64,000 nt of DNA from Desulfobacterium sp. (GTDB lineage Bacteria; Desulfobacterota; Desulfobacteria; Desulfobacterales; Desulfobacteraceae): contig JAQYWC010000066.1 in NCBI GenBank assembly GCA_030145245.1, positions 38,680 through 102,679 on the forward strand, read 5' to 3'. Position numbers and translations under genes: made by a program. This document shows, in pieces, positions 1,539 to 15,995 of the stretch. Each line of letters opens with the position of its first letter. Position 1 is the stretch's first letter. The notes under the pieces are model-generated. The model did not search any database, was not told where the DNA came from, and was given only the letters and a program-made list of their open reading frames with translations.

Positions 1539-3062
1539 CTATTTTGAAAAACCGTTTTGCCCCTTAAAGACAGGAACGCTTTTTTCTGTTTTTTTGGTCA
1601 GATCAAGATTGTTGTTTATGAAAAAATCGAAATCGCTGATCATATTTTTAAGGTCCTGGCCGGGCAGTATCGGCACCTCTCCCTTGTTCAACGGCCGTAC
1701 GATCTGGGGGGTCACAATGATAACCAATTCGGTTTCCTGGTGTTGAGTCTCCTTGCTTGTGAAGAATGAACCAAGGTAGGGAATATCCCCGACAAAGGGA
1801 AGTTTGTTTGTTGAGACAAAACTTTCCTCCTTTAAAAGACCTGCCAGGGCAAATGTCTGTCCGTTTTTCATCTGAATGGTTGTTGAAACCTTTCTCTCGG
1901 TCAGCCCGGGAACGGTTACACCGGCGGCTGTGACGCCAAGGGAGTAATCAGGGGCACTCACCTCAGGGGTCACCTCAAGTGTAATGGTCTCCTGATCAGT
2001 GATATAGGGAGTAAAATTGAGCTTTATGCCGTAGGAGTTGTACTCAATAGTAATTCCGCCTTCGTCGGTCTGAACCGGGATGGGGTAGGAACCTCCGACC
2101 TGGAAGCTTGCTTTTTGACCGTTCATTGTGACCAAGGTGGGCGATGCAAGGGATTTTGCAAGTTTCTGCCCTTTAAGCAGGCTTATTATACCAAGCCAGT
2201 CGTGCTTTGTGGAATTAAGGGCTATCTGAAATGCAGTGCCAAAGGGAGAGTTAAAGCTGCTGGAGGATCTCTGGGAAGAACGGGTGCTGTTTATAGGCAT
2301 TCCGCCTGAAATAGTTTGTTCAAAACTATTACCGAATTCTCCGCCGATTGTTGTCTTTGTTGTTATACTCGGGGATGTATAATCCGTCGAGCTTGAGGAG
2401 GTGCTGTTTCCGGTGTAGTCTCCCCCCTTAAAGATCCCGATTCCCAGGTTTTCCTTGCTGTTCAGGAAATTGATCCCCATCTGTTTCAATCCGGACTTTG
2501 AAATTTCAGCGATCACAACCTTGAGCTGCACCTGCTGGGGGCCTGTAAGATTTATCAGGTTGAAGAATTTAATATCAAAGCTTTTTACCACGGTAAGGAC
2601 TTTTTCAAGAATCGCCTGGCTTGTTACCTCGCCTTTGAGGATGATCGACCGTTTCCCGCTGGATTGCCGGACCGGCAGAATTTCGATCTCAACCTCCGGT
2701 GCAATCTCTTTTACCCTTGCTTCCATGAGTTCCAGGATGGACGGGGGCATGGGAGAATACACCTCTATATGAAACGTCTCCGCCATATTTTCATCCTTCC
2801 ACAGGATCAGGGTGGTGGAGGCGGACTTCTTTGACTTGGAGACAATAAGCATCTGGGTGGGCGTTACCACACTTACATCGGCAATATTGCTATCAGCTAC
2901 GGCGGCCCGGATAATGGGATACCGGGTTTTCATGAGATAGGAGTGATGGAGCTGAATCCTGATGGGTTCCCCCTTTTCAGTTCCATCCGCCATGGCGTTA
3001 TCCGGCAGGAAGATGAAAATCAGGATCAATGGGACAAAAATATTTTTTATCAGGTTCTTCAA
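1539..3062 (-). CDS. cpaC: Tad pilus secretin CpaC/RcpA
   Basis: 507-residue outer-membrane secretin of the Tad system. It starts with TTG at 3062 behind a good AAGGAG site about eight bases away; the next residues form a signal peptide (MKNLIKNIFVPLILIFIF). Then come the CpaC N-terminal pilus-assembly domain, a BON-like segment and the secretin domain. The C-terminal signature VPFVGDIPYLGSFF and the block ELVIIVTPQIVRPL are typical. A Ser/Thr-rich insert (about residues 215-260) precedes the secretin core. It follows cpaB by 35 bp. It is one of three secretins in this window. Confidence 0.93.
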   Translation of the reverse strand: MKNLIKNIFVPLILIFIFLPDNAMADGTEKGEPIRIQLHHSYLMKTRYPIIRAAVADSNIADVSVVTPTQMLIVSKSKKSASTTLILWKDENMAETFHIEVYSPMPPSILELMEARVKEIAPEVEIEILPVRQSSGKRSIILKGEVTSQAILEKVLTVVKSFDIKFFNLINLTGPQQVQLKVVIAEISKSGLKQMGINFLNSKENLGIGIFKGGDYTGNSTSSSSTDYTSPSITTKTTIGGEFGNSFEQTISGGMPINSTRSSQRSSSSFNSPFGTAFQIALNSTKHDWLGIISLLKGQKLAKSLASPTLVTMNGQKASFQVGGSYPIPVQTDEGGITIEYNSYGIKLNFTPYITDQETITLEVTPEVSAPDYSLGVTAAGVTVPGLTERKVSTTIQMKNGQTFALAGLLKEESFVSTNKLPFVGDIPYLGSFFTSKETQHQETELVIIVTPQIVRPLNKGEVPILPGQDLKNMISDFDFFINNNLDLTKKTEKSVPVFKGQNGFSK

Positions 3063-3097: not shown

Positions 3098-4201
3098 TTA
3101 ATCAACATAGAATTTTATCGGGTGGGTTGTAGAACCTTTCAGTACTTCAATGATCCTGAATGCTCTTTTGTCTTTTAAAAACAGGTCACTCAAGAGTTCT
3201 CCCCGGGTTGTGATCCGCTCCCTGTCCTTGGGATTTCTTGTTACGATCCTGAGATCTCCATTTGTTGAAGAGTCCGCGATTACAGCCAGTTTTTCCGCCT
3301 GGGTCGGCGTTACGACCAGGGTAACGCAAGTGGCGGCTTTATTCTTATCAAAGACGTTTTTAAGAAGCTGCTCCGTTGTCAGGACCTCAACATCCTGGAG
3401 CAGGATTTTCGAGGATTTCCTGACATTAAAGATCTCTCCCTTTGTTCCCACAGCCTGGTTGCCTCCTTCAGTAGAGAAAACCGAGGCCTTGCTCGAAAAG
3501 ATCACATCCACCCGGTCCCCGGGCTTCAGGGTTCCGCAAACCCCGTCGGTGTTGTCTATCTGAAGTGTTATGGCCCGCATTCCGGATTTGATGAGAGTTG
3601 CGGGATTGGATGCAGACCGGTTAACGGTGACAACCCCGGTATCGCTTGCATATATGGTGGGCATGGTTTCAAGGATTTCATTGTCATTGGCGTTTCTCAA
3701 AAGAAGCCGCAGCTTGGTGGCCTCGCTGATTGAAGCAATGACCGCACCCTGTTCCGGCGTAACCAGCAGATGAATGGTCCATGTTTTCTTTTTCCTGGCG
3801 GCCTTATCTGTAAGTTTTTTCTTAACGGAGGTCTCCTCCAGGGTATATATTTTTATATTCTGGAGCACGATACGGGAGATCTTGCCATTGGATACCCCTT
3901 TGTAAGGTGTAACAGCCAGGATATCCACCCGGTCGTCCTTTTCAAGCTCCCGGGTCACCCCTGAGATCTCATTCACCCCGATGGTGACAATCCTCATGCC
4001 TTTGGGAATGGCCCGGGAAAACGCCCTCCCCTTATCAACAGGCTGTTCCGGTATTTTCTTTTCCGGTTTTTGAACAGGAACGGCCTGAATGACGGGAGCA
4101 GCCTGAACAGGCTCTCTCTTCAGCATGGAGACCCCTTTTACGGCCAGAAGCCCCATGAAAACTGAAATAAGCAGTGCAATAACGGTTTTTGCTTTAAACA
4201 T
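3098..4201 (-). CDS. cpaB: Tad pilus assembly protein CpaB/RcpC
   Basis: 367 residues starting at ATG 4201, with an N-terminal membrane anchor or signal (residues about 5-27) and a Pro/Gln-rich linker. Two SAF/RcpC-type modules follow, recognisable by the paired stretches GVTRELEKDDRVDILAV and GVCGTLKPGDRVDVIF. CpaB/RcpC is periplasmic and helps stabilise the CpaC secretin, possibly through its SAF domains binding peptidoglycan. The order flp-cpaA-tadE-cpaB-cpaC-cpaE-cpaF supports the call. A 72-bp gap separates it from tadE. Confidence 0.9.
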   Translation of the reverse strand: MFKAKTVIALLISVFMGLLAVKGVSMLKREPVQAAPVIQAVPVQKPEKKIPEQPVDKGRAFSRAIPKGMRIVTIGVNEISGVTRELEKDDRVDILAVTPYKGVSNGKISRIVLQNIKIYTLEETSVKKKLTDKAARKKKTWTIHLLVTPEQGAVIASISEATKLRLLLRNANDNEILETMPTIYASDTGVVTVNRSASNPATLIKSGMRAITLQIDNTDGVCGTLKPGDRVDVIFSSKASVFSTEGGNQAVGTKGEIFNVRKSSKILLQDVEVLTTEQLLKNVFDKNKAATCVTLVVTPTQAEKLAVIADSSTNGDLRIVTRNPKDRERITTRGELLSDLFLKDKRAFRIIEVLKGSTTHPIKFYVD

Positions 4202-4273: not shown

Positions 4274-4732
4274 TCAGGGGAATGCCATCAGTGATACAGC
4301 GCTTATGGTGCGGGGAATCATGCCCTCGGGCAGATAACCGGTCAAAGGAGTGTACTCATAGTCAACCACCCTGACCTCCAGGTATTTGCAGGATTCATAA
4401 TCGTCCAGGGAACTATTCCCAGCGCCCTTGAAACTAACCTCAACCCCGCTACCATCCAGGGAATCATCGAGCCAGAAGCCTTGGTTTACTGCATTGATCG
4501 CAATCTGTTCAGGATCCTCGTACTCCTCATCATCGGAATCCAGCCAGTACTTAACCTTTACCCCTGCCCTGGCACCTGAGGAAACGGCATTCTCCATGAT
4601 CATCACATTGGTCAGGTACCAGGAGTAATCCAGGAGTCCGAAGAAGATCATGAACCAGATGGGCAGGAGAATCGCAAATTCCACTGCGGCCGTACCCCTG
4701 TTGTTGAGAAATCGTGCTTTGAAAATTTTCAA
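4274..4732 (-). CDS. tadE: TadE-family pseudopilin
   Basis: 152 residues. The N-terminal segment NRGTAAVEFAILLPIWFMIFF is the TadE signature: short basic leader, conserved Glu, one long hydrophobic helix. TadE proteins are pseudopilins processed by the Tad prepilin peptidase, encoded immediately upstream here. The start is a TTG at 4732 that overlaps the cpaA stop by four bases, with GGAG four bases upstream. TadE usually comes with TadF/TadG; none is seen in this part of the operon. Confidence 0.85.
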   Translation of the reverse strand: MKIFKARFLNNRGTAAVEFAILLPIWFMIFFGLLDYSWYLTNVMIMENAVSSGARAGVKVKYWLDSDDEEYEDPEQIAINAVNQGFWLDDSLDGSGVEVSFKGAGNSSLDDYESCKYLEVRVVDYEYTPLTGYLPEGMIPRTISAVSLMAFP

Positions 4733-5247
4733 ACCGCTCCCCCCGCAATGAGATAGGCAATATATCCTGTAAGAATCGGAACCGAATAGGGAATACTCTC
4801 CCTCTTCCCAGCTGCCAAAACGGGCGACAGGTTGAAAATCAGCACTTTCAGATCTTCAACAATACCGGTCAAGGAGCTTAACCTCTTTTTTTTCAACAAC
4901 AGGAAAAGCGAAACAACTCCCCCGGCCATGGCACCGTAGAGAAATATCCAGGAAACGGCAAGGGGGCCGACAAGGGAACCGATCGCTCCCAAAAGCTTCA
5001 CATCGCCACCTCCTGCCCCGCCCAGGAGAAACGGGACAATAAAGACCAACAGCCCTGCTGCCAACCCTTTCAAAGCCCAAAAGACGCCCGGCCCCATTCC
5101 CAGTTGAACTGCATTCAGCCAGATTCCAAGAACGACAAAGGGCATGGTGAGCCAGTTGGGAATCTTTCTCCACAACAGATCGGTACAGACCGCAATGCAA
5201 ATCAGCACCATGGTCCCGGAAAAAGGAGTCTGTATCCAGCTTATCAC
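4729..5247 (-). CDS. cpaA: Prepilin peptidase CpaA/TadV
   Basis: 172-residue A24 aspartic prepilin peptidase, without the N-terminal methylase domain of PilD. The two catalytic Asp regions are visible: the first in CTDLLWRKIPNWLT, the second in the GxGD motif GGAGGGDVKLLGAIG. The rest is membrane-spanning. It should cleave Flp and TadE leaders at the inner membrane. The GTG start at 5247 is chosen because AGGAG lies six bases upstream. It follows flp by 12 bp. The window holds no PilD/GspO, so the Gsp pseudopilins must use a peptidase encoded elsewhere, or this one. Confidence 0.9.
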   Translation of the reverse strand: MISWIQTPFSGTMVLICIAVCTDLLWRKIPNWLTMPFVVLGIWLNAVQLGMGPGVFWALKGLAAGLLVFIVPFLLGGAGGGDVKLLGAIGSLVGPLAVSWIFLYGAMAGGVVSLFLLLKKKRLSSLTGIVEDLKVLIFNLSPVLAAGKRESIPYSVPILTGYIAYLIAGGAV

Positions 5248-5259
5248 GACTTTCTCCTG

Positions 5260-5463
5260 CTACTCGGTGACAGTGGGGTTTTTAATTTTCTCTGTTGTCG
5301 TTTCAAGCTGGTCTGAGATGGCATCAAAAAGAAGGCCCAGCTTTTCGCTGAAACCGCCTAGTACAGTTACGAGAAGTGCCGCCATGATCCCTGCAATCAA
5401 ACCGTACTCAATGGCTGTTGCACCAGATTCATCTTTCCATAGTTTTTTTAACAATCGTTTCAT
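5260..5463 (-). CDS. flp: Flp-type class IVb pilin
   Basis: 67-residue major pilin. The class IVb motif ESGATAIEYGLIAGI shows the cleavage Gly (G/ATAIEYG), the Glu at +5 and the Tyr next to it that mark Flp pilins, followed by one hydrophobic helix. I use the ATG at 5463, with AGGTG five bases before it, rather than an in-frame extension to 5529, because that extension would give an implausible leader and would run through the inverted repeat at 5487-5515. It is the first gene of the Tad operon. Confidence 0.92.
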   Translation of the reverse strand: MKRLLKKLWKDESGATAIEYGLIAGIMAALLVTVLGGFSEKLGLLFDAISDQLETTTEKIKNPTVTE

Positions 5464-5515: not shown

Positions 5516-5650
5516 CTGTTCTCATTCATCGTTATCCGATAGTAAGTAATACCCGATCAATCGATTCAATGCTTGGATTTTATTGCTAAAGAACAGCACT
5601 ATTTTGCTATTAACTAAAGACCACTGATTTATTCAGTGCCGGACCGGGCT

Positions 5651-6550
5651 CTATCTTAGAACAAGGCTCTTTTGCCCGGCCTGGCCGCAGCCGTCAATTT
5701 TCCAGTGAAGGCTGTTGAGCCAAAGATCCGGAGTCCCCTCCACATCAACGGTAACGGATTGTTTTTTCGCTAAAAGAGATTTCCGGTACAATGAGGGACT
5801 TGTGCCCTGGATCTTCTTAAACACACGTGCAAAATAGGAGACATCGTTAAACCCCACGGCATAGCAGATCTGGGAAACGTTCATACCCTGATTTCCCATC
5901 ATCCGTTTGGCCTCCTTGATCCGTGTGCGATTAAGATATTCCTTGAACGAGCAACCGAGAGTATGTTTAAAGAGACGGGAGTAATGGTACCGGCTCAATC
6001 CATTAATGGCCGAGACATCATCCAGGGTGATGGAGCCCATATATTGGGTTTCAATGTGCTCCAGGGATCGCTGGAGTTTTTTACGGCCCTTTGGCACGAT
6101 CGGTTCCCCACCGGACATTGGGGCGGAACGGGTCTGAAAATACAGGCTGCCAAGCCGGCTTAAGGCGGCGTTTTCGAAAAAGACGCTGATCTCGGGATAG
6201 GTGTTGAGCATCTCGACAAAATCCACCGTTTCAATGGTGTAGCAGGTCGTGGGCCGGGTTGCCACAAGATCAATGATGGAGAGCCCCTTGTCCACAAGGG
6301 CCATAAGGCCGTAATACTCGCCCACGGTTAAAGAACCGTTGGAACGGATCCCCCCCTCTTTAGAACAGCGCTCAATTGCGAGGTTGCCGGAAACCACATA
6401 CCCGATCTGGGCCACTGCCTGGTTTTCCTGTAAGAGGAGGGTATCTTGGGAAAAAGTGCGCAACTGGAACAAGGATTCTATCTTGTCCCTTTTCGCGGGT
6501 TCAAGGGTGCTGAAAGGGGGAATATACTGCAGCAGGTCACAGGTTTTCAT
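5651..6550 (-). CDS. CRP-like sensor / AraC-type transcription regulator
   Basis: 299 residues from ATG 6550 (GGAG seven bases upstream; a TTG two codons earlier is less likely). Residues about 1-140 resemble a cyclic-nucleotide-binding beta-roll of the CRP family (for example GYVVSGNLAIERCSKEGG, SLTVGEYYGLMALV). The C-terminal third has two AraC helix-turn-helix units: ITLDDVSAINGLSRYHYSRLFK and the signature VSQICYAVGFNDVSYFARVFKK. It lies 187 bp upstream of flp on the same strand, so the Tad operon is the obvious target; this is inference. Expression should be controlled by the cobalamin riboswitch and terminator just upstream, which is unusual for such a regulator. Confidence 0.85.
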   Translation of the reverse strand: MKTCDLLQYIPPFSTLEPAKRDKIESLFQLRTFSQDTLLLQENQAVAQIGYVVSGNLAIERCSKEGGIRSNGSLTVGEYYGLMALVDKGLSIIDLVATRPTTCYTIETVDFVEMLNTYPEISVFFENAALSRLGSLYFQTRSAPMSGGEPIVPKGRKKLQRSLEHIETQYMGSITLDDVSAINGLSRYHYSRLFKHTLGCSFKEYLNRTRIKEAKRMMGNQGMNVSQICYAVGFNDVSYFARVFKKIQGTSPSLYRKSLLAKKQSVTVDVEGTPDLWLNSLHWKIDGCGQAGQKSLVLR

Positions 6551-6560
6551 TCTCAAGCTC

Positions 6561-6599
6561 CAAAAAACAAAAATCCCGGCAACAGTATTGCCGGGATTT
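6561..6599 (-). terminator. Intrinsic terminator between cobalamin riboswitch and AraC-type gene
   Basis: On the minus strand a perfect 12-bp stem (AAATCCCGGCAA / TTGCCGGGATTT, loop of five, plus 6571-6599) is followed by TTGTTTTTT. It ends directly before the GGAG of the regulator at 5651-6550. Its position downstream of the riboswitch makes it the expected expression platform for B12-dependent attenuation. Confidence 0.9.
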
Positions 6600-6656
6600 A
6601 CGTTTTTAAATCCACTTAAGGTGTCGACGTCCTTTGTCCGTAAGGATAGTCAATTC

Positions 6657-6816
6657 ATGCAGGTCGGTCTTCTGACTCACGGATCATTTTACTTGTCGCG
6701 CCTTCCCGTTTTAAAAAAAACAGTGACATAAATGCGACGTTCATCCCCGTTCACAGCGGCGGGCCCGTCATCGGTTTTCACGATGTTCCCATGCTCTATA
6801 AAATGAGCACCTGCAT
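6657..6816 (-). ncRNA. Cobalamin (AdoCbl-type) riboswitch
   Basis: Read on the minus strand, the closing helix P1 is ATGCAGGT (6816-6809) pairing with ACCTGCAT (6664-6657). In order come a P3-like hairpin ATCG..CGAT, the core ACGGGCCCGCCGCTGTGAAC then GGGGA, the CACTG block, CGGGAAGGCGCGAC (pairing back to GTCGC), and the B12-box-like GTGAGTCAGAAGACC. This matches the known cobalamin riboswitch consensus element by element. A terminator stands 57 bases downstream. The gene it controls by position is the CRP/AraC regulator at 5651-6550, not a B12 synthesis or transport gene. Confidence 0.95.
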
Positions 6817-7242
6817 TCCATAATTTTTTATGAAACCATCGGTTTGGTTAAGATGTATGAAACAACCCCAAACGACATGGGGTGGTTCTAAAAACAATCA
6901 CAAAAAAAGTCAAGCAATAAAATCGACATCACATTTTAAATAAAAACCTGCCGCAAGACCACTGTGCGCAAATCAAAACCAACGTCATCCCACCATCAAA
7001 AAAAACAGGGTTCATTCACAATTTCCCTTGTGTTTTCCCACAAAACAGCTATCAATAACAGGGAAAGCATTAAATCATGATCCATTGACGACATTTGACG
7101 ACATTGCCGAAAAAAGGAGCTAAAACCGCTAAAAAATCCTATTATTCGGCAATAAATCAATAGCAAAGATATGAAATTTATCGTATAAAAAAGCAGTCTT
7201 GGATTGTTTTTCACCCATGTAAACGAATAAAGAAGGATGGAT
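6817..7242. promoter_or_regulatory. Divergent upstream region of the riboswitch and of the gsp operon
   Basis: AT-rich and without a convincing gene. It holds an 8-of-9-bp hairpin (6861-6887, AACAACCCC/GGGGTGGTT), a tandem 10-bp direct repeat TTGACGACAT (7085-7094, 7095-7104), and a spaced 9-bp inverted repeat ATTGCCGAA (7103-7111) / TTCGGCAAT (7145-7153) that encloses a smaller AGGA/TCCT pair. TATAAA at 7184-7189 is a possible -10 box for gspG, but its -35 region is weak. AGAAGG at 7231-7236 serves the ATG at 7243. Confidence 0.4.
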
Positions 7243-7686
7243 ATGACACTGTCTTCAAAAAATGAAAAAGGCTTTACACTGATTGAACTGATGGTGGTGG
7301 TGGTGATTCTGGGAATCCTGGCAGGACTCATCGTGCCGAGGCTCATGGGAAGAACCGACGAGGCAAAACAGGTCAAGGCCCAGGTTGATATCGCAGCCAT
7401 TGAAACGGCGTTGAAACTCTATCGCCTGGACAACGGCAACTACCCGCCCACGGAGCAGGGACTCATGGCACTTGTGGAAAAGCCTTCGTCCGAGCCCGTG
7501 CCTGCCAAATGGCATGAAGGCGGCTATCTTGAAAAAGGCAAGACACCCAAGGATCCCTGGAACAGGGAGTATCTCTACCTCTGCCCCGGCATCCACGGAG
7601 ACTTTGACATCATCTCCTACGGCGGAGACGGCGCACCCGGAGGAGAAGGTAAAAACAGGGACATAAAGAGCTGGGAACTTGAGTAA
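7243..7686 (+). CDS. gspG: Type II secretion major pseudopilin GspG
   Basis: 147-residue major pseudopilin that forms the periplasmic piston of the type II secretion system. The leader ends at the prepilin site KG/FTLIELMVVVVILGILAG with the conserved Glu at +5. The C-terminal part has the GspG hallmarks NGNYPPTEQGL, PKDPWNREYLY and the calcium-loop region DIISYGGDGAPGGEG. The ATG at 7243 is preferred over 7237 because AGAAGG then sits six bases upstream instead of touching the start. It is the first gene of the gsp operon. Confidence 0.95.
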   Translation: MTLSSKNEKGFTLIELMVVVVILGILAGLIVPRLMGRTDEAKQVKAQVDIAAIETALKLYRLDNGNYPPTEQGLMALVEKPSSEPVPAKWHEGGYLEKGKTPKDPWNREYLYLCPGIHGDFDIISYGGDGAPGGEGKNRDIKSWELE

Positions 7687-8194
7687 AAAGCGTTCGGGGG
7701 AAACCGGGTTTACCATCATAGAGCTTGTTATTGTTCTAGTCATAGCAGGTATTCTCCTGTTTTTCGCCCTTCCAACGTTCCAGAATGTACACTTTTTTTC
7801 AGACCCGGAAAACGCCCTTGGAAAAACGATTCAATTGATCGACTCGTTAAAAAGAAAGGCTGTGACCGACAACAGGGATTATATGATGCATGTGGACATT
7901 ACCGCAGGCCGCATATGGGTTTCGGACGATTCCATGGACCAGGAAGCAATGAAAATCGCCAGGGAAAAAGGCATTCAATTCTCGGGCAATACCATTGTCC
8001 TTGACGTGGAATTTCCCGGCGCCATGCCCCTTGCCTCGGATGACGTCCGGATAAAATTCCGCAGGCAGGGGTATTCGGACATGGCATTGATCCACATCCA
8101 GGAGGAGGAGAACGATGTCACCCTGAGGGTCGAGCCCTTTCTTTCAAGGGTTGAACTTGAGAACAGGAGTGTCTCCTTTGACCAGTGCATGTAA
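7679..8194 (+). CDS. gspH: Type II secretion minor pseudopilin GspH
   Basis: 171 residues. Prepilin cleavage site TG/FTIIELVIVLVIAGILLFF with Glu at +5, then a variable GspH-type domain. It starts with TTG at 7679, overlapping the end of gspG by eight bases; no better start lies upstream of the cleavage motif. Assignment rests on the motif plus its place between gspG and gspI. Confidence 0.88.
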   Translation: MSKKRSGETGFTIIELVIVLVIAGILLFFALPTFQNVHFFSDPENALGKTIQLIDSLKRKAVTDNRDYMMHVDITAGRIWVSDDSMDQEAMKIAREKGIQFSGNTIVLDVEFPGAMPLASDDVRIKFRRQGYSDMALIHIQEEENDVTLRVEPFLSRVELENRSVSFDQCM

Positions 8195-8591
8195 ACCATC
8201 CATGGTAAGGACGATTGAAGGGTTTACCCTTCTTGAGATAATGGTGAGTCTCTCCATTGTTGCCATCGTCTTTGTCTCCCTGTTCAAGATGCAGTCCTCG
8301 AGCATTCTGCTTGCCGGGTACGGCAAATTTCATTCAACCGCCCCCTTTCTTGCACGTCAGACCATCACCCGGATCGAAGGGGATCTTGCCGATGATTCCG
8401 ACCTGTCAGGTGATTTTGGAGACAGTTTCCCAGGGTACCAGTGGAGCGCAAGGATAACCGATTATCAGACCTTTGATTCTGCGATCATCCCGGAATCGGC
8501 AGCAGAACGACTCAAGCGGGTGGAGATCGATATCCTCCAGGGAGAAAACCAATTTACCCTGAACACCTGGAGATATCTTAGTAATGAATAG
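8178..8591 (+). CDS. gspI: Type II secretion minor pseudopilin GspI
   Basis: Minor pseudopilin of the tip complex; cleavage motif EG/FTLLEIMVSLSIVAIVFV. Two starts are possible: TTG at 8178 (AGGAG seven bases upstream, 15-residue leader, overlaps gspH) and ATG at 8202 (7-residue leader but no ribosome site). I chose 8178 on the ribosome site. It overlaps gspJ by eight bases. GspI, GspJ and GspK form the tip that primes the pseudopilus. Confidence 0.85.
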   Translation: MTSACKPSMVRTIEGFTLLEIMVSLSIVAIVFVSLFKMQSSSILLAGYGKFHSTAPFLARQTITRIEGDLADDSDLSGDFGDSFPGYQWSARITDYQTFDSAIIPESAAERLKRVEIDILQGENQFTLNTWRYLSNE

Positions 8592-9249
8592 GGGATTCAC
8601 GCTGATAGAGATCCTCATCGCCGTCCTGATCTTCGGGATCCTGATGACCACCCTGTTCACCTCGTTCCAGTCTTTCATCTCCTCTTCAACGGCCGTAAGC
8701 GACGGGATGGCACAGGACGAACGGATCAGAACCCTCCTGGGGCACCTGGAAAGGGATCTTGGCGCCCTCTACATCTCCCGGCCCCCACGGTACAAAAAAC
8801 CTGCATCCATTTCCGACCCGGATCCGTTCAGGTTCGACGGCACCCAGGAGAGCGTTGGCGGCACCCTTGTCTCAAGGCTTGGGTTTGCCTCCCTCAACCA
8901 CCTCTCCCTGGGAAAAAAGGATATCCCCGGCGTGGCACGGATCGCCTACCATGCAAGGTCCAATAACGACAACGGAATCGATCTTTGCAGGTCCGACACA
9001 TTAAGACCCTTTGACGAGCCCAGGGAGGGCTCCTGCGATCCCGTGCTTATCCACAACATATCGGAATTCGAATTAATTTATGTGGACCAAGAGGGGGATG
9101 AACACAGCTCCTGGGACTCTGAATCGGACACCGTCAAGTACACCTTTCCCGTTTCCGTAAAGTTCAAGATCACCCTCAACACAGGCGATGTCCCAAAGAT
9201 CGTTGAGACCCAAATTGCCCTTCCCGTTTCAAGGGAGGCCCTGGATTGA
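8584..9249 (+). CDS. gspJ: Type II secretion minor pseudopilin GspJ
   Basis: 221 residues from ATG 8584. A very short leader precedes RG/FTLIEILIAVLIFGILM, with Glu at +5. The rest fits GspJ in length and in the conserved QDERIRTLLGHLERDL region after the helix. It overlaps gspK at a TTGA junction, so the two are likely coupled. Confidence 0.9.
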   Translation: MNRGFTLIEILIAVLIFGILMTTLFTSFQSFISSSTAVSDGMAQDERIRTLLGHLERDLGALYISRPPRYKKPASISDPDPFRFDGTQESVGGTLVSRLGFASLNHLSLGKKDIPGVARIAYHARSNNDNGIDLCRSDTLRPFDEPREGSCDPVLIHNISEFELIYVDQEGDEHSSWDSESDTVKYTFPVSVKFKITLNTGDVPKIVETQIALPVSREALD

Positions 9250-10349
9250 CAAAGGTCGGCAACAATAAAAACGGCATGGCCCTCCTGATCTGCCTTGCCA
9301 TCATTTCGGTACTTGCCGCAGCCGGTCTTGAACTGGGGAAAAGGGTGAGGAACTCAACCGACCATGCCATTGTGCTCCAGGAAAGCTTCAGGGCCGAAGA
9401 GATGGCCCTGGCAGGAATCAACCTTGCCATGCTGCTCCTGGAAGAGGATGCAAACGCCAACGAGACCGATTCCGTTCAGGAGAACTGGGCCGACCCGGAT
9501 ATCCTTGGGTCGGCAATCGCCTCCCTGGGATACGACACCGGAAAGGTGACCCTCTCCATTGTTGATGAACTGGGAAAAATCCAGGTAAACGCCCTGATAA
9601 CCGAATTTCCCGGCAGCACCTTCAACACTGACCAGCAAGAATTTTGGGAACGCTTTCTGGACCTGCTGATCTCGGCTGACAAATCCGAGGATGCAAGGGA
9701 TCCCGTGGAGATCATCAACTGCCTCAAGGACTGGCTCGACTCAAATGATGATGACCTGGAAACAGGCACCTCCGGCGAAGAATCCTCCTATTACCAGGAC
9801 CTTGACCCGCCCTACACCTGCACCAACGGTCCCTTTGATATCCTGGACGAGATCTTTCTGGTCAAGGGCGTGTCAAAGGATATTCTGACCCATGAAACGG
9901 TTGAGGGGGCCCCGGAGGTCACCCTTGAATTTTCAGAAGCCTTTACCGTGTTCGGGATGGATGATACTGTGTCCGAAAATGGGCGCTACCGTTTTCCTGG
10001 GACCATCAACATCAACACGGCCAATGACATGGTACTGGCGGCCCTTCTTCCTTCAGGCATGGAAGACCAGGTCCAGGAGCTGGTTGATTACAGGGTTCAG
10101 AAACAGGAAGAGACAGGGGATTTTGTAAACACCCTTGACAAGGGATGGTACAAAACGGTAATCGACTTATCAGAAAAAGAGGGTAAACGGTTCGACCGCC
10201 TGATACGCTACTCAAGCCATATTTTCAAGGCAGAGTGCTCAGCTACAGTGGGCAATACGGAAAAAACGATAAGAGCCTATATTAAGAGAAAGAAGGACAA
10301 AGAGACCAACAGATGGACTTGCAGAACCATCCGGTTGTTGAGGAGTTAG
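9246..10349 (+). CDS. gspK: Type II secretion minor pseudopilin GspK
   Basis: 367 residues starting with TTG at 9246; GGGAGG lies seven bases upstream. The cleavage region NG/MALLICLAIISVLAAAG lacks the Glu at +5, which is the known mark of GspK. A helix-hairpin-helix-like segment is visible in GTININTANDMVLAALLPSGM. It is somewhat longer than usual GspK proteins. GspK caps the pseudopilus. Confidence 0.92.
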   Translation: MTKVGNNKNGMALLICLAIISVLAAAGLELGKRVRNSTDHAIVLQESFRAEEMALAGINLAMLLLEEDANANETDSVQENWADPDILGSAIASLGYDTGKVTLSIVDELGKIQVNALITEFPGSTFNTDQQEFWERFLDLLISADKSEDARDPVEIINCLKDWLDSNDDDLETGTSGEESSYYQDLDPPYTCTNGPFDILDEIFLVKGVSKDILTHETVEGAPEVTLEFSEAFTVFGMDDTVSENGRYRFPGTININTANDMVLAALLPSGMEDQVQELVDYRVQKQEETGDFVNTLDKGWYKTVIDLSEKEGKRFDRLIRYSSHIFKAECSATVGNTEKTIRAYIKRKKDKETNRWTCRTIRLLRS

Positions 10350-10358
10350 AGGCTTTTT

Positions 10359-11789
10359 ATGAACAGAACGATCCTTGGACTTGACATAGGAAACAATTCG
10401 CTTTCGGCCGTTGTTGTGGAAAAGCCGTTAAAGGGGTTTTCCATAAAGGAAAGCGTGACCATCTCCTTTGACGACCTTGAGAGCCATGGGGATTCCACCC
10501 CGGAAGAGACGGATATCAGCCGCTTTGAGCAGGCTCTTTCCCTTCTTATGGAAAAGATCGACTGCAAAGGATTCTCCGCTGTGGCCGTGGCCATTCCCTC
10601 ACCCTGGGTCTCGTTCAGGAACATCTCCCTTCCGTTCCGCTCAGCCAAAAAGATACGGCAGGTCCTTGGGTTTGAGCTGGCCTCCCACCTTCCCCTGGCA
10701 GACGAGACCTATGTGTCGGATTTCACCCAGCCCCCCAAAACAGGCGCAGGTGATTTCCCCCCTTTGTTGACGGCATCGGTTCCGGACACGACCCTTGGGG
10801 ACTGTTTCAGCGCCCTTGCAACAGCAGATCTGCAACCCTCCCTCATCACGGTCCAGGGCTACATAGCCGCCGATCATTTGTTAGAATCCGGCATTGACGA
10901 GGAGCACACCCTGTGGATCGACCGTACCGAAGATCACACCACCCTGTGCCTTGGCGTAAAGGGAGCCATCGTCCAGGTCCGGTCCCTGGGAGCGAACCTT
11001 ACTATACCCGCCCTGGCAAAAGCCGTACAGCAGACTGTTAAAGGAGAACACCAGCGGTCCCAGGAGGGGTTTATGCCCCAAAGATGCATCATCACTTCCC
11101 CGGAGGAAGATGCTGCCCCCCTGTGTGCCCCCCTTGAAGAGGCACTCGGGTGTCCGGTGGTCTCCATGGATCCGCAACCCATCAATGCAATCTCAGCCGC
11201 CCTTGCCAATGCGACCTCCAGACCTGTCTTCAATTTCTGCCAGGGAGACTACTCCGAGGATTCCATCCTGAAACGCTATACAGCCAATATCGCTGTGCTG
11301 CTCATCTTTGTTGTCGTGGCATTTTCAGCCTTTATGTTCAAGGTCCATGCCGACATCGCATTCATGGAGAACAACGCAGCAGAGCTCGAGCAGGCAAGCA
11401 CTGCCATATTCAAAAAGAGCTTTCCAAAAGTAACGAGGATCGTGGATCCACTGATGCAGATGAAAATAGAGCTCAAACAGCTCAAGGAGACCTCGGGCCT
11501 TTCCGGCGAGGGAACCACCCCCCCGGATGGACTCAACCACTCTTGCGTCGACATTCTTGCTGAGCTGTCAAACAAGATACCGATGTCCATCGACGTTGAA
11601 ACCAACAGGTTTATCCTGAACCCGGGCCGTATTCTCCTGTCCGGGTCCACGGCAAACTTCAACAATGTTGACAAAATAAAGGGGCTGCTTGAAGGGTCGG
11701 CTCTGTTCAAGCAGGTGGAGATCCAGAGCGCTGCGGCAGATAAAACTGGAAAACGGGTTCGATTTAAATTTGTCATTACCCTGGGATAA
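10359..11789 (+). CDS. gspL: Type II secretion inner-membrane protein GspL
   Basis: 476 residues from ATG 10359 (AGAGG upstream). The N-terminal cytoplasmic domain has the actin-like PilM/GspL fold signature ILGLDIGNNSLSAVVVEK. One transmembrane helix at about residues 307-329 (NIAVLLIFVVVAFSAFMF) is followed by a periplasmic domain. GspL anchors the GspE ATPase to the inner-membrane platform with GspM, the next gene. Confidence 0.88.
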   Translation: MNRTILGLDIGNNSLSAVVVEKPLKGFSIKESVTISFDDLESHGDSTPEETDISRFEQALSLLMEKIDCKGFSAVAVAIPSPWVSFRNISLPFRSAKKIRQVLGFELASHLPLADETYVSDFTQPPKTGAGDFPPLLTASVPDTTLGDCFSALATADLQPSLITVQGYIAADHLLESGIDEEHTLWIDRTEDHTTLCLGVKGAIVQVRSLGANLTIPALAKAVQQTVKGEHQRSQEGFMPQRCIITSPEEDAAPLCAPLEEALGCPVVSMDPQPINAISAALANATSRPVFNFCQGDYSEDSILKRYTANIAVLLIFVVVAFSAFMFKVHADIAFMENNAAELEQASTAIFKKSFPKVTRIVDPLMQMKIELKQLKETSGLSGEGTTPPDGLNHSCVDILAELSNKIPMSIDVETNRFILNPGRILLSGSTANFNNVDKIKGLLEGSALFKQVEIQSAAADKTGKRVRFKFVITLG

Positions 11790-11796
11790 TTTACGT

Positions 11797-12330
11797 ATGA
11801 ACATTTCACAACGAGACAAAAAGGCGTTGATCATCTGCGCAGGATTTCTGATAACCTTTGTTGTTGTTCAGTTTATCCTGGTGCCGGCCCTGGACCGCAA
11901 AAAAGAGCTGGAACAGCGGGTTGCGGCCAATGAAACAGCCTTGAACGAAATCATCGCACTGCAGCAGGAGTATTCCAGCCTCTCCAGGATGAACATGGCT
12001 GAAACCGGTATTTTGTCCCAACGGGCCAAGGGGTTCACCCTATTCTCCTTTCTGGACACCCTGGCTGAAAAGAGCGGCGTCAAGGACAACGTGGCCTACA
12101 TGAAGCCCTCCTCCAGGACCTTCAACGACAAAAACTACGCCATCTCCATGGTCAAGATAAAACTGGACACCCTCTACCTCAAGGAGCTGGTGGATTTTCT
12201 CTACAGCGTTGAAAGCTCCCGGAACGGTGTGCACATAAGATCCCTGTCCCTCTCCAAGACGGGCAAGGAGCAAACCATGATAGACGCCATTGTCGAGGCT
12301 GAAACCCTGGTAAAAGGAGATGCCGCCTGA
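11797..12330 (+). CDS. gspM: Type II secretion inner-membrane protein GspM
   Basis: 177 residues from ATG 11797. Short cytoplasmic N-terminus, one transmembrane helix (ALIICAGFLITFVVVQFILV), a coiled-coil stretch (residues about 34-60) and a small periplasmic ferredoxin-like domain: the GspM/PilO build. The call rests mostly on this topology and on its place between gspL and gspN. Its TGA and the gspN ATG share one base. Confidence 0.85.
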   Translation: MNISQRDKKALIICAGFLITFVVVQFILVPALDRKKELEQRVAANETALNEIIALQQEYSSLSRMNMAETGILSQRAKGFTLFSFLDTLAEKSGVKDNVAYMKPSSRTFNDKNYAISMVKIKLDTLYLKELVDFLYSVESSRNGVHIRSLSLSKTGKEQTMIDAIVEAETLVKGDAA

Positions 12331-13196
12331 TGGGTGCAAAAAACGTCTCCCTCTACCTGACCTACGCCATCCTGACCTTCCTCGTTTTTGCATACCTGCT
12401 CTTTCCAGGTGAAAAGGCAGGCCTTCTCATGGCGGACAGGCTGAACCGAATCAGCCAGGACCTTAAGGTGGAGCTCAACCCGGTAACCCCGGTACTGCCC
12501 ATGGGATTAAAGACCCTGAACCCGGAGCTCACCCTTTTCAACACCACCACGGTCACCCTGGATTCATTCTTTTTCTCCCCGAACATTTTTTCCCTGTTCA
12601 AATCCCAGAACTCGGCGGATTTCACAGCAGCGCTCTTCAACGGGATCGTCAAAGGCCATGTGTCAGCACCACGCTCTGCCAACCCGTCCGGAATCACCCT
12701 CACCTCGAAATTTTCAGAACTTGAGATCGCCCCCATCGAATTCAACACCGGAGAGACCGCCCTGAGTTCCCGTTTCACCCTGGGCGGCACCTTTGATTAC
12801 GGCCTCAATCAGGCACCCGGGGATGCCAGGGGCACCCTTCGCCTTTCAAATCTGATCACCGAGGTCCACAACCCGCTGCTTGAAAAGCTGGGCATCTCTG
12901 AGTTTCATTTCACCACCGTTGACATGAACTACACCATCAAGAAGAACCGGATGGATATCCTGAGTTTCAAGGCCCTGGGAAGCGAGGCAACCATAACCCT
13001 GACCGGCACAGGCGTAATCAACGCGCCTGTTGGAAAAAGCAGATTGAACCTCAAGGGAGAAATTCGACCGGATACGGCCTATCTGACCAGCTTTGCCGGG
13101 CTATCCTCCGTTGCAATGCTGTTTGACGATTCAAAAAAAGGGGGAATTCCCTTCACCATTTCAGGAACCGTGGAGAAACCCATTTTCAGATTATGA
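12330..13196 (+). CDS. gspN: Type II secretion protein GspN
   Basis: 288 residues: one N-terminal transmembrane helix (YLTYAILTFLVFAYLLF) and a periplasmic beta-rich domain ending in GIPFTISGTVEKPIFRL, typical of GspN in deltaproteobacteria. GspN is an accessory component that many systems lack. It overlaps gspC by four bases. Confidence 0.85.
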   Translation: MGAKNVSLYLTYAILTFLVFAYLLFPGEKAGLLMADRLNRISQDLKVELNPVTPVLPMGLKTLNPELTLFNTTTVTLDSFFFSPNIFSLFKSQNSADFTAALFNGIVKGHVSAPRSANPSGITLTSKFSELEIAPIEFNTGETALSSRFTLGGTFDYGLNQAPGDARGTLRLSNLITEVHNPLLEKLGISEFHFTTVDMNYTIKKNRMDILSFKALGSEATITLTGTGVINAPVGKSRLNLKGEIRPDTAYLTSFAGLSSVAMLFDDSKKGGIPFTISGTVEKPIFRL

Positions 13197-14059
13197 AAAC
13201 TCTTTTTACATGCTTAAATCTCATCTGTTTGACGGTTGCCCTCTATTTCTGCACCGGGATCATGTACAAGCGAATCGAGACCGCAACATACAGCCCTCCC
13301 GATCTCTCCCAACGCATGAACAAGGGGGGGCAGGAACGGCAGACCCGGGATGGAAAAAAGATCTCCGCTGCTCAAACCCGGTCGATCACGGGCCGCAATC
13401 TTTTCAAGGCATCGGTGGCCCCGGACAAAAAGGAAAAGAACACCCCGGAGGTTGATCTTGAAAACCAGGAAGATCTTGAAAAAACCACCCTCAACCTGAA
13501 GCTGTGGGGAACCGTGGCAGGCATCGGCAGCGGGTCCTTTGCTGTGATCCAGGAAAAATCCAGCAGGACCCAGGCCCTGTACCACGAGGGTGACAGCGTT
13601 GCCGGCGCCGAAATAAAGAAGATCATGCGATCCAGCGTAATCCTCAACCACAACGGCGAGAACCAGATCCTGGAGATGGAGACCACCACCCCCAAGGGGC
13701 GGGGCAGATCCCCCTCTCGAGAACCTTCGATCAGCTCTTCTAACATGACCATACAGCGGTCCGTCATTGATGAAGCCATGGGCGACATGGAAAGCCTGAT
13801 GAAACAGGTCAGGGTCAGACCCCATTTTTCCAAGGGCAAACCCGACGGACTCTTGATATACGGCATAAAAAGCAATGCCCTTTTCAAAAAAATGGGATTA
13901 AGAAACGGAGACATCATCATGGGGGTTGACGGTAAAGAGATCACCTCCATCGACGATGCCCTCTCCCTGTACCAGGGACTGAGACAGGCGTCCGAAGCGA
14001 ACATAAAACTGAAAAGGCGAGGTAAAGTAAAGGAGATCAACTACCATGTCCAGCAATAA
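13193..14059 (+). CDS. gspC: Type II secretion inner-membrane protein GspC with PDZ domain
   Basis: 288 residues. N-terminal transmembrane helix, then the homology region (NLKLWGTVAGIGSGSFAVIQ, residues about 100-160) that contacts the GspD N0 domain. A C-terminal PDZ domain follows (IKSNALFKKMGLRNGDIIMGVDGKEI), implicated in substrate choice in related systems. The last 14 bases overlap gspD, whose product is its partner. Confidence 0.92.
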   Translation: MKTLFTCLNLICLTVALYFCTGIMYKRIETATYSPPDLSQRMNKGGQERQTRDGKKISAAQTRSITGRNLFKASVAPDKKEKNTPEVDLENQEDLEKTTLNLKLWGTVAGIGSGSFAVIQEKSSRTQALYHEGDSVAGAEIKKIMRSSVILNHNGENQILEMETTTPKGRGRSPSREPSISSSNMTIQRSVIDEAMGDMESLMKQVRVRPHFSKGKPDGLLIYGIKSNALFKKMGLRNGDIIMGVDGKEITSIDDALSLYQGLRQASEANIKLKRRGKVKEINYHVQQ

Positions 14060-15995
14060 ATTTTGGGTACTTCCCCTTTTTGCAATACTGATTATCAACT
14101 GTTTTTCCCCCCTTCCATCTGTAGTCACCCAGGCTCAGGCCGCTGATTCCAAGGTTGCTGGCAAATATATATCCATTGATTTCAACAATGTGGATATCAA
14201 CGTGTTCATCAAGTTCATCAGCGAACTGACCAAAAAGAATTTTGTGGTGGATAAAAGGGTCAAGGGCAACGTGACCATCATCTCTCCGTCCAAGATATCG
14301 GTGGAAGAGGCCTATGGGGTGTTTGAATCCGTGCTTTCCATCCACGGATTCACCGCGGTTGAAGCAGGACAGGTGACCAAAATCATCCCTGCTCCTGAAG
14401 CCCGGTCCAAAAGCATCGATACCCGGATCTCAAAGGGGAAAGAATCCCCCACAGACAGTATCGTCACCCGGATCATCCCCTTGAAATTTGCCGAGGCAAA
14501 CGAGCTCAAGAAACTCTTCACGCCGCTTATCTCCAAGGGAAGCGTCATCCTTGCCTATGCCGCCACCAACACCCTGATCATCACCGACACCCTCTCCAAC
14601 ATCGAGCGGCTTTTGACCATCATCAATACCGTGGATGTTATGGGCATCGGGAAACGGATCTCCGTGATTCCCATCGAGAATGCCGATGCGGTCAAGCTTG
14701 TCAAGAACCTCTCCACCATCTTCATGGCCAGAATCAGGACCACCAAAAGCAAGCAGGCCCCGGAGATGATCGTGAAATTCGTGGCCGACGACCGCACCAA
14801 CTCCATTGTGGTGCTGGCAAGCGATATCGAAACCGACCGGGTCAAGAAACTTGTGGCCCTGCTGGACAAAAAGATTCCCAGGGGAGATGAGAAGATCCGG
14901 GTCTACTATCTGGAGCATGCATCTGCCGAAACCCTTGCCAAGGTGCTCCAGGAGATGCCGGTGAAAAAGAGCGCCCAGACCAAAAACGGAAAAAAAACCG
15001 CCCCGGTGATCTCCGACACGGTGAAGATCACGGCGGACAAGGCCACCAACAGCCTGATCATCATGGCGGAAAAAGAGGATTATCCGGTTCTCGAAGAGGT
15101 GATCCAGAAACTCGACATCCCAAGGTCCATGGTCTATATCGAGAGCCTCATCATGGAGGTAAAGGTCAACGCCGGGCTCAATATCGGCACCCAGTGGCAG
15201 GTCGGGGAAGGGTATGACCAGGACTCAGACGGCAACGACCAGGGCGCCTATTTCGGCGGATTCGGAGGAAAAGATTACGGCAATCTAATTACTGCTGCCA
15301 CAAAGGGGGCACTTCCTCCTGGATTTTCCGCCGGCATCGTTGGCAAAACCATCACCATCGGTGATGTGACCTTTCCCAGTATCGGGGCGGTGATCCAGGC
15401 CTATGAAACAGACAATGACACCCACATTCTCTCAACCCCCCAGATCCTCACCACGGACAATGAAGAGGCCACCATCACCATTGGCAAGAACGTGCCCTAC
15501 CAGACCCGGTCAGCGGCCGAGAGCGGCACCGACACCTACAGCTCCTATGAGTACAAGGACGTGGGCATCACCCTGAAGATCACCCCCCAGATCAGCAAGG
15601 ACCGGCTGGTTCGACTCAACGTGTTCCAGGAGATCACCTCCCTTGACAACGCCAACCCGACAACCAATGACCGCCCCACCACCCTGAAGCGCAAGATCGA
15701 GACCACCCTGATCGTGGAAGACGGCAACACCGTGGTAATCGGAGGGCTCATCGACGAAACCCTCTCCAACATAGAGCACAAGGTGCCCTGCCTTGGAGAT
15801 ATTCCCGGCCTCTCCTATCTGTTTAAATCCCTCTCCACCGGCGATGACAAGACCAATCTCTACGTGTTCCTGACCCCCAGGGTAATAAAAAACCCCTTTG
15901 AGGCCACCGAACTCTACAAATCCAAGCGCCAGGAGATCGATGAAGTGCGCCAGGGGGATGTAAAACTCTACAACGGCACAGAGGAGAGTAAATGA
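14046..15995 (+). CDS. gspD: Type II secretion outer-membrane secretin GspD
   Basis: 649 residues. Signal peptide (cleavage near AQA/ADSK), N0 domain (ISIDFNNVDINVFIKFISEL), repeated N1-N3 modules with NTLIITDT, TNSIVVLASD and TNSLIIMAE, then the secretin core: TIGKNVPYQT, VGITLKITPQIS, NTVVIGGLIDE and IPGLSYLFKS. It forms the gated outer-membrane channel. No S-domain for a pilotin is obvious at the C-terminus. Confidence 0.95.
   Translation: MSSNKFWVLPLFAILIINCFSPLPSVVTQAQAADSKVAGKYISIDFNNVDINVFIKFISELTKKNFVVDKRVKGNVTIISPSKISVEEAYGVFESVLSIHGFTAVEAGQVTKIIPAPEARSKSIDTRISKGKESPTDSIVTRIIPLKFAEANELKKLFTPLISKGSVILAYAATNTLIITDTLSNIERLLTIINTVDVMGIGKRISVIPIENADAVKLVKNLSTIFMARIRTTKSKQAPEMIVKFVADDRTNSIVVLASDIETDRVKKLVALLDKKIPRGDEKIRVYYLEHASAETLAKVLQEMPVKKSAQTKNGKKTAPVISDTVKITADKATNSLIIMAEKEDYPVLEEVIQKLDIPRSMVYIESLIMEVKVNAGLNIGTQWQVGEGYDQDSDGNDQGAYFGGFGGKDYGNLITAATKGALPPGFSAGIVGKTITIGDVTFPSIGAVIQAYETDNDTHILSTPQILTTDNEEATITIGKNVPYQTRSAAESGTDTYSSYEYKDVGITLKITPQISKDRLVRLNVFQEITSLDNANPTTNDRPTTLKRKIETTLIVEDGNTVVIGGLIDETLSNIEHKVPCLGDIPGLSYLFKSLSTGDDKTNLYVFLTPRVIKNPFEATELYKSKRQEIDEVRQGDVKLYNGTEESK

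Follow-up and report, generated by a model that had tools for sequence, protein, structure and literature searches.

A cobalamin riboswitch heads an AraC-type regulator predicted to bring Tad pilus, type II secretion and B12-binding-family genes of Desulfobacterium under B12 control

Cobalamin riboswitches are usually regarded as local switches of B12 genes. Among transcription factors, AraC at araBAD binds half-sites repeated directly at a distance of 21 bp, the proximal one lying against the -35, and the genes of the Tad/Flp pilus comprise flp, a prepilin peptidase, TadE, RcpC, secretin, CpaE, TadA, TadB, TadC and TadG-like genes. Riboswitch control of a regulator is described for Listeria monocytogenes, where the riboswitch lies 3' and antisense to pocR and PocR is made at high B12, for B12-dependent enzymes (PMC9943018). 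Capture of B12 at the cell surface is described for Bacteroides thetaiotaomicron with its proteins BtuG, BtuH and BtuJ (PMC8941943, PMC12751083, PMC13398666).

The locus described here lies in a 64-kb window, i.e. the whole stretch of DNA analysed (G000:C72:38680-102679), of a 6.4-Mb Desulfobacterium genome in 83 contigs (G000). It resembles Listeria pocR in that a cobalamin riboswitch would set the level of a regulator and spread B12 control to other operons; unlike that system, the riboswitch is sense and 5', ends in a terminator and is predicted to turn the regulator on at low B12, a CRP-like domain replaces the PocR domain and the predicted targets are pili and surface proteins. With Bacteroides it shares B12-binding proteins of the DUF4465 (BtuJ) family. 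There, these are made under B12 limitation from riboswitch-regulated loci and occur as lipoproteins and with vesicles, whereas here PEP-CTERM-type proteins go with Tad and type II secretion (T2SS) genes and control is predicted to act in trans through the riboswitch-gated regulator. The 21-bp direct-repeat spacing and the half-site against the -35 recall AraC at araBAD; unlike AraC, however, our regulator has a CRP-like sensor domain and its signal is predicted to enter via RNA level rather than as arabinose. The Tad gene set is the familiar one, to which a predicted control by B12 scarcity and a neighbouring B12-binding-family gene are added; a literature search for a link between Tad pili and B12 found nothing relevant. 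We consider it probable that the AraC-type regulator binds direct repeats before the Tad, T2SS, DUF4465 and secreted-protein operons and that B12 scarcity switches this regulon on.

An earlier sequence-only reading of this DNA had seen a complete cobalamin riboswitch followed by a 12-bp terminator, and the covariance-model search it proposed bears this out. RF00174 matches 6829-6645 on the minus strand with 104.9 bits (gathering 31.5; E 3.4e-25) over the full model length (positions 1-189), the only match above Rfam gathering in the whole 64-kb window, and the closing helix (6816-6809/6664-6657) is indeed present as ATGCAGGT paired with ACCTGCAT. Between aptamer and start codon lies an intrinsic terminator (6599-6571, minus strand) with a stem of 13 pairs and a T tail, TTGTTTTTT, directly after it; the expression platform folds at -33.9 kcal/mol (z -4.80 vs shuffles). 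The gap of about 20 nt that separates the terminator from the ATG at 6550, where a separate promoter would have spoken against riboswitch control, has no promoter-like match wholly within it. A strict terminator is found in 16 of the 21 regulator leaders examined (G401 and G734 were left out). Since aptamer and platform are 94.6% and 94.7% identical to those of the closest relative (G059), as compared to 78.9% for the upstream DNA and 81.8% for the regulator coding sequence, the RNA seems to be under a constraint of its own.

The regulator frame runs from ATG 6550 to 5651 on the minus strand and encodes 299 residues, a predicted activator. As the earlier reading had proposed from the letters, Pfam places a cyclic-nucleotide-type sensor domain (cNMP_binding, PF00027; residues 31-118, 37.6 bits, cut-off 27.5) before an AraC/XylS-type C-terminal double helix-turn-helix (HTH; residues 181-257, HTH_18 82 bits, HTH_AraC 77.3 bits). 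In CRP-like sensors the Glu and Arg of the phosphate-binding cassette are the cyclic-nucleotide residues. When the profile is aligned with a PDB chain and read by hand (GEYLGEIAFLNEQPRTAS in the chain, GEYYGLMALVDKGLSIID in the regulator), Leu82 stands for the Glu and Ser91 for the Arg. Cyclic-nucleotide binding of the usual kind is thus improbable for the CRP-like domain, and we judge such an input unlikely. The comparison with PocR made in the sequence-only reading stands in part: NCBIfam PocR is the best partial match and speaks for a related HTH as in Listeria PocR, but it covers residues 154-261 only and scores 84.5 bits against a cut-off of 500, the PocR ligand-binding domain (PF10114) has no Pfam match in the protein, and the riboswitch is sense and 5'. 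Direct membership of the regulator among PocR-like proteins is rejected because the PocR domain is missing.

To see how far the arrangement extends, a regulator profile built from 13 relatives was searched in 389 genomes of the order and in a draw of 395 from the phylum; up to six candidates were scored per genome, so the counts are lower bounds and "no detected regulator" is not the same as proven absence. The order gave at least 25 hits in at least 24 genomes; a search at class level, which seems to have covered the same 389 genomes and hit the same 16, yielded nothing further. RF00174 lies upstream on the same strand in all 16 hits with E <=2.7e-44, within about 0.7 kb and mostly much closer, and in none of the nine weaker AraC hits; the longest gap (about 0.6-0.7 kb) belongs to G133, whose hit also has internal stops. 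Among at least seven further hits from the phylum draw, six have RF00174 upstream, one of them weak (37.7 bits), while G401 has no RF00174 above cut-off upstream of its regulator. Altogether 22 of 23 genomes with close regulator homologues carry the riboswitch upstream, and in a protein-database search the homologues stand apart as one group, among them proteins of the culturable relatives Desulfosarcina ovata subsp. sediminis and Desulfobulbus elongatus, before similarity drops to PocR-domain proteins. The sequences show that the regulator shares a single leader-gene unit with aptamer and terminator and that its pairing with the riboswitch is repeated across the phylum.

Sixteen of the 23 regulators are full-length, although one (G025; L038 9882-12223) is split behind its riboswitch by an open reading frame that gives the impression of a mobile element and has no Pfam match. 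The other seven (L054-L057, L096-L098) are reduced to the HTH, with open frames of 112-160 aa and no sensor domain, and six of these still have the riboswitch upstream. Such members would have no obvious sensor besides the RNA, and some may be remnants. Other neighbourhoods carry additional RNA elements or transport genes. At L099 (8452-10567) and L102 (9127-10944) a cobalamin riboswitch, the regulator, a second cobalamin riboswitch and a c-di-GMP-I riboswitch follow each other before a PEP-CTERM/DUF4465 operon, possibly a two-ligand RNA gate. In G020 two c-di-GMP-I-GGC riboswitches (L035 7959-8035, 11203-11279) flank the regulator, each heading a PEP-CTERM gene and lying near an operator of the kind described below. 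The riboswitch-regulator-flp unit of G664 is directly preceded by a TonB receptor gene that has a cobalamin riboswitch of its own (L101 10985-13375). NicO and DUF1007 genes, both of Co/Ni uptake families, lie beside the regulator at L069/G266 (Pfam), and L068/G229 has a NicO match (blastp).

Downstream of the regulator and on its strand, the sequence-only reading had placed flp and the Tad operon, and Pfam agrees. The flp prepilin gene (5260-5463, Flp_Fap; its ATG 5463 taken from the G059 homologue, which starts MKRLLKKLW, the mechanical frame beginning at 5529) is followed by a prepilin peptidase (4729-5247, Peptidase_A24), a TadE-like pseudopilin (4274-4732), RcpC/CpaB (3098-4201), the Tad secretin (1539-3062) and a CpaE/TadZ-like ATPase (336-1535), all on the minus strand. 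Beyond the window edge the operon runs on with TadA, TadB, TadC, TPR and TadG-like genes (blastp), so that the locus has a complete set of flp, peptidase, secretin and RcpC (Pfam) plus TadA, TadB and TadC (blastp). Divergent from it on the plus strand (7237-17686) lies a T2SS-like operon with GspG, pseudopilins, GspK, GspL, GspM, GspC, GspD and GspE. Pfam assignments in the window cover the genes between 336 and 17686; genes outside the window are simple open reading frames compared by blastp with named queries, and by Pfam for chosen ones.

In the survey of related genomes that the earlier reading had called for, the regulator has Tad genes nearby in 13 of the 23 genomes (G000, G059, G081, G020, G025, G124, G266, G229, G345, G381, G605, G664 and G401). 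Of the other ten, five regulators (G050, G335, G132, G180, G252) sit on contigs of 4-9 kb and five (G642, G668, G734, G467, G133) have no Tad genes in about 20 kb. As Tad order and strand relative to the regulator vary among genomes, this neighbourhood is not one frozen block. We also reject a purely accidental Tad neighbour, since the combination of riboswitch, operator and genes returns from family to family.

What may connect the regulator with these operons is a promoter motif first seen when G000 and G059 were aligned: before flp (5575-5608, minus strand) lies a direct repeat, AGCAA-N16-AGCAA with a period of 21 bp, the sole exact copy in the 64-kb window. This predicted operator scores 46.9 in a leave-one-genome-out model (the highest shuffle in any genome reaches 20.9), and a -10-like element of the flp promoter, TATTAC (5546-5551, minus strand), follows at offset +57 from the operator start. 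A second predicted operator (7127-7160, plus strand; score 30.1) precedes the divergent T2SS-like operon and has an equivalent in G059 (30.0) located 55 nt before GspG. In other loci scanned, exact AGCAA-N16-AGCAA copies are likewise present in the promoters of Tad operons and of operons for DUF4465 and secreted proteins. In G000 itself operator sites stand before flp/tad and GspG as well as before the DUF4465 gene and one secreted-protein operon. Throughout its 6.4 Mb the exact AGCAA-N16-AGCAAT occurs eight times, with three copies in the 15-kb locus described here (P ~1e-6) and a single copy of the backward control. A longer pattern derived from the G000 and G059 sites, with up to three mismatches allowed, has four hits in G000, three of them perfect and identical to its source sites, and six in G059, five of which are in regulon loci and three of these new (flp, a secreted-protein operon, three on a contig that also carries PROP and PEP99b-like genes, one elsewhere); backward controls gave 0 and 1 hits, respectively.

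In 23 aligned sites, two of which are near-identical G605 copies, a -10-like TAtnA follows at a fixed offset of +57 to +61 (T in 21/23 at +57, A in 21/23 at +58, T in 17/23 at +59 and A in 16/23 at +61). This element played no part in picking the sites, and its five columns hold 5.03 bits of information vs 2.06 for the best non-overlapping window. The half-sites are 13 bp long and 21 bp apart, and the second abuts the -35 position, where TTGACA is absent. Because this is the layout of a class II AraC-type activator, we predict the regulator to be an activator.

With the leave-one-genome-out model, which includes the -10-like element and whose threshold of 21 was set after the shuffles (highest 20.9) were known, 39 sites are found in loci of 18 of the 23 genomes, one of them, in G668, at exactly 21.0. 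Genome-wide operator searches covered G000 and G059; elsewhere the scan was confined to loci selected for the regulator they contain, and in G059 two stretches had come in through the operator pattern itself. Seven of the 12 genomes that contributed no training site are among the 18. No site at or above 21 was seen in G081, G467, G133, G050 or the G229 stretch scanned, which is without the flp side, nor in a control of 110.5 kb from the other B12 loci of G000. Within 1.6 kb downstream of 29 of the 39 sites lies a Tad, Gsp, DUF4465, PEP or PROP gene, and the remaining sites are followed by a contig end or an unannotated gene, in a single case by the regulator. The first named gene downstream is flp in G000, G059, G605, G664, G020 and G345, and GspG in G000 and G059. 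The labels PEP35b, PEP99c and PROP were coined in this analysis. A link between PROP and the BtuG propellers was looked for at the sequence level and not found: profile matches in the PDB are to type-3-repeat, dockerin and calmodulin-like calcium-binding stretches only, which is why "propeller-like" is for PROP an impression and nothing else. The PEP35b family has no PDB match.

The link to B12 beyond the riboswitch comes from DUF4465. The sequence-only reading had noted no B12 gene in the window, which the Pfam assignments address for the genes between 336 and 17686; the only DUF4465 gene found in G000 (G000:C72:28255-28767, minus strand; PF14717, 149.2 bits) lies some 10 kb past the window edge, where the Tad operon has already ended, at a distance of 15.6 kb from the regulator. 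Eight distant members of the family bind B12 according to PMC13398666, which mentions no Desulf- taxa, pilus or PEP-CTERM. Nine of the 23 regulator genomes have one DUF4465 gene each (a fragment in G133); in eight of these genomes gene and regulator share a contig and are less than 24 kb apart, and the ninth gene, in G059, lies on a different contig, with genes that correspond to the G000 region adjoining Tad. None was found in the remaining 14, of which G020, G025, G381, G605 and G266 carry other secreted proteins of the same set. Over the 389 genomes of the order, with the regulator in at least 16 and DUF4465 in 34, the two occur together in five where 1.4 are expected (p 0.008, kinship ignored), a modest association. 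Solved relatives in the PDB include 9hmu, labelled D5EK; PMC13398666 describes D5EK51 as solved with B12. The same paper reports an HI-loop contact tyrosine in 97% of homologues and a second one in the DE helix (Y146 of BtuJ1). The former is kept in all eight aligned DUF4465 proteins (loop NVPKYV in the G000 protein, NTPAYF in six of the eight). The latter, a contact residue outside the Pfam definition of DUF4465, is by hand count Tyr in six of the eight, Trp in G059 and Phe in G000, and because of this Phe, B12 binding by the G000 protein itself is likely but less sure.

Put together, a riboswitch before the regulator, a common promoter motif before pilus, secretion and DUF4465 genes and a layout that is in good part repeated in distant relatives lead us to predict that B12 shortage induces this surface machinery. 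Adenosylcobalamin binding to the aptamer would favour termination (an OFF switch); at low B12, RNA polymerase would pass the terminator and the regulator would be made, bind the two 13-bp half-sites abutting the -35 and activate flp/tad, T2SS, DUF4465 and other secreted-protein operons. The regulon may thereby display B12-binding proteins at the cell surface, with the T2SS as their presumed exporter and Tad pili either adhering or presenting them. Because T2SS, DUF4465 and secreted-protein operons are included in the predicted regulon, the B12 control most likely belongs to the cell's means of acquiring B12, and surface machinery turned on by B12 shortage would likely help the cell to catch the vitamin. 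The suggestion of the sequence-only reading, that B12 status controls the regulator and perhaps pili, gains support from the riboswitch in 22 of 23 genomes, Tad genes nearby in 13 and an operator before flp in six, and we keep it as a prediction.

How the pili would serve such a regulon is where a rival has real weight. The B12 regulon may exist while the Tad pili are for attachment or biofilm, e.g. to B12-producing neighbours, instead of B12 capture, a reading to which we give a serious chance, if somewhat short of even. Tad pili are established adhesins, and c-di-GMP riboswitches share these leaders in G642 and G668 and neighbour the regulator in G020. Against it, G000, G124, G345 and G664 have B12-binding-family genes close to Tad, with an operator upstream in all but G345; this fits capture, though this is adjacency and not physical coupling. 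More daring, and in our estimate rather doubtful, is a pilus that fishes for B12: in B12-starved cells the riboswitch-gated activator would build Tad pili and a T2SS exporting and presenting B12-binding proteins, and pilus extension and retraction would gather the vitamin. If true, this would parallel siderophore scavenging, with proteins in place of siderophores, and would be a trait conserved in Desulfobacterota-like families.

Whether the regulator activates or represses bears on the sign of the predicted response. Were it a repressor, B12 scarcity would shut the Tad/T2SS regulon and pili would be made when B12 is plentiful. Repression is possible for AraC-family proteins, but sites just upstream of a -10 at fixed distance and against a -35 lacking consensus are a classic activator layout, and DUF4465 genes of relatives point the same way. 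DUF4465 without a detected regulator is found in 29 genomes of the order, and 27 of them supplied one DUF4465 locus each. In 21 of these 27 a B12 box lies within 1.5 kb, 20 of them upstream on the strand of the gene by our own reading, while in 92,925 control bases the B12-box expression is not matched once; by established logic, a B12 box means induction at low B12. So we regard the repressor as improbable and retain activation. The operator occurs in one of the 27 loci only (L159/G319), where the DUF4465 gene has both an operator (36.4) and a B12 box and no regulator was detected in a genome that is 88%-complete, whereas the G000 DUF4465 locus has the operator and no B12 box. Similarly, the G605 counterpart of the T2SS has its own RF00174 (133.8 bits) and those of G000 and G059 have the operator, and in G642 and G668 the secreted-protein operon is preceded by a stack of operator, cobalamin riboswitch and c-di-GMP-I riboswitch. 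This suggests that cis riboswitch control has been replaced by trans control at related B12-binding genes.

The polarity of the switch itself may be judged from other riboswitches of the genome, which has 15 RF00174 matches. A first gene was assigned for 13 of the 14 other sites, and none is a regulator: there are five TonB receptors, CobN, a chelatase, FecCD, RACo and a ThiC-like radical SAM gene followed by CobT (L027 4574-7241), the ThiC-like gene being perhaps part of an anaerobic, BzaF-like lower-ligand route. At the fourteenth (L030), CobO/BtuR lies farther along the same strand. Three riboswitches head genes without obvious B12 role, i.e. cytochrome c assembly (L025 7414-7607), ABC-2 export (L026 2692-2909) and a sodium symporter accompanied by a methyltransferase (L033 6160-6389), so an odd-looking target alone proves little. 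Many of the leaders share by eye one platform, a short GGAT/ATCC hairpin overlapping the terminator arm. Cobalamin riboswitches of uptake and synthesis genes switch their genes off when B12 is present, and as the same platform (by eye) follows the TonB receptor, CobN and chelatase aptamers, we infer OFF polarity for the regulator, too. The opposite, an ON switch in which bound B12 would prevent termination and thereby switch on the regulator, is even less probable than repression: in its favour, no strong antiterminator can be drawn and the short GGAUUU/AAAUCC hairpin that overlaps the 5' arm of the regulator's terminator is absent from the predicted fold, in which the terminator forms, yet the platform is the one found behind B12-repressed genes. 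Least of all do we believe in control in cis only, with riboswitch read-through governing regulator and flp together and no trans regulon: regulator and flp share a strand in G000, G059 and G664, with only a weak 6-pair terminator-like match between them in G000, but the regulator is opposite in strand to Tad in G020, G266, G229, G345 and G381 and the operator recurs before separate operons, GspG and DUF4465 included.

With induction of the regulon at low B12 as our preferred reading, a cobalamin riboswitch seems to work here via a dedicated activator, so that one aptamer would command several operons, pili and secretion included. The 21-bp-period operator is named and open to direct testing, and PEP-CTERM-type proteins and the Tad pilus of Desulfobacterium-type anaerobes gain a testable physiological cue. 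If borne out, the predicted regulon would extend surface B12 capture beyond Bacteroides.
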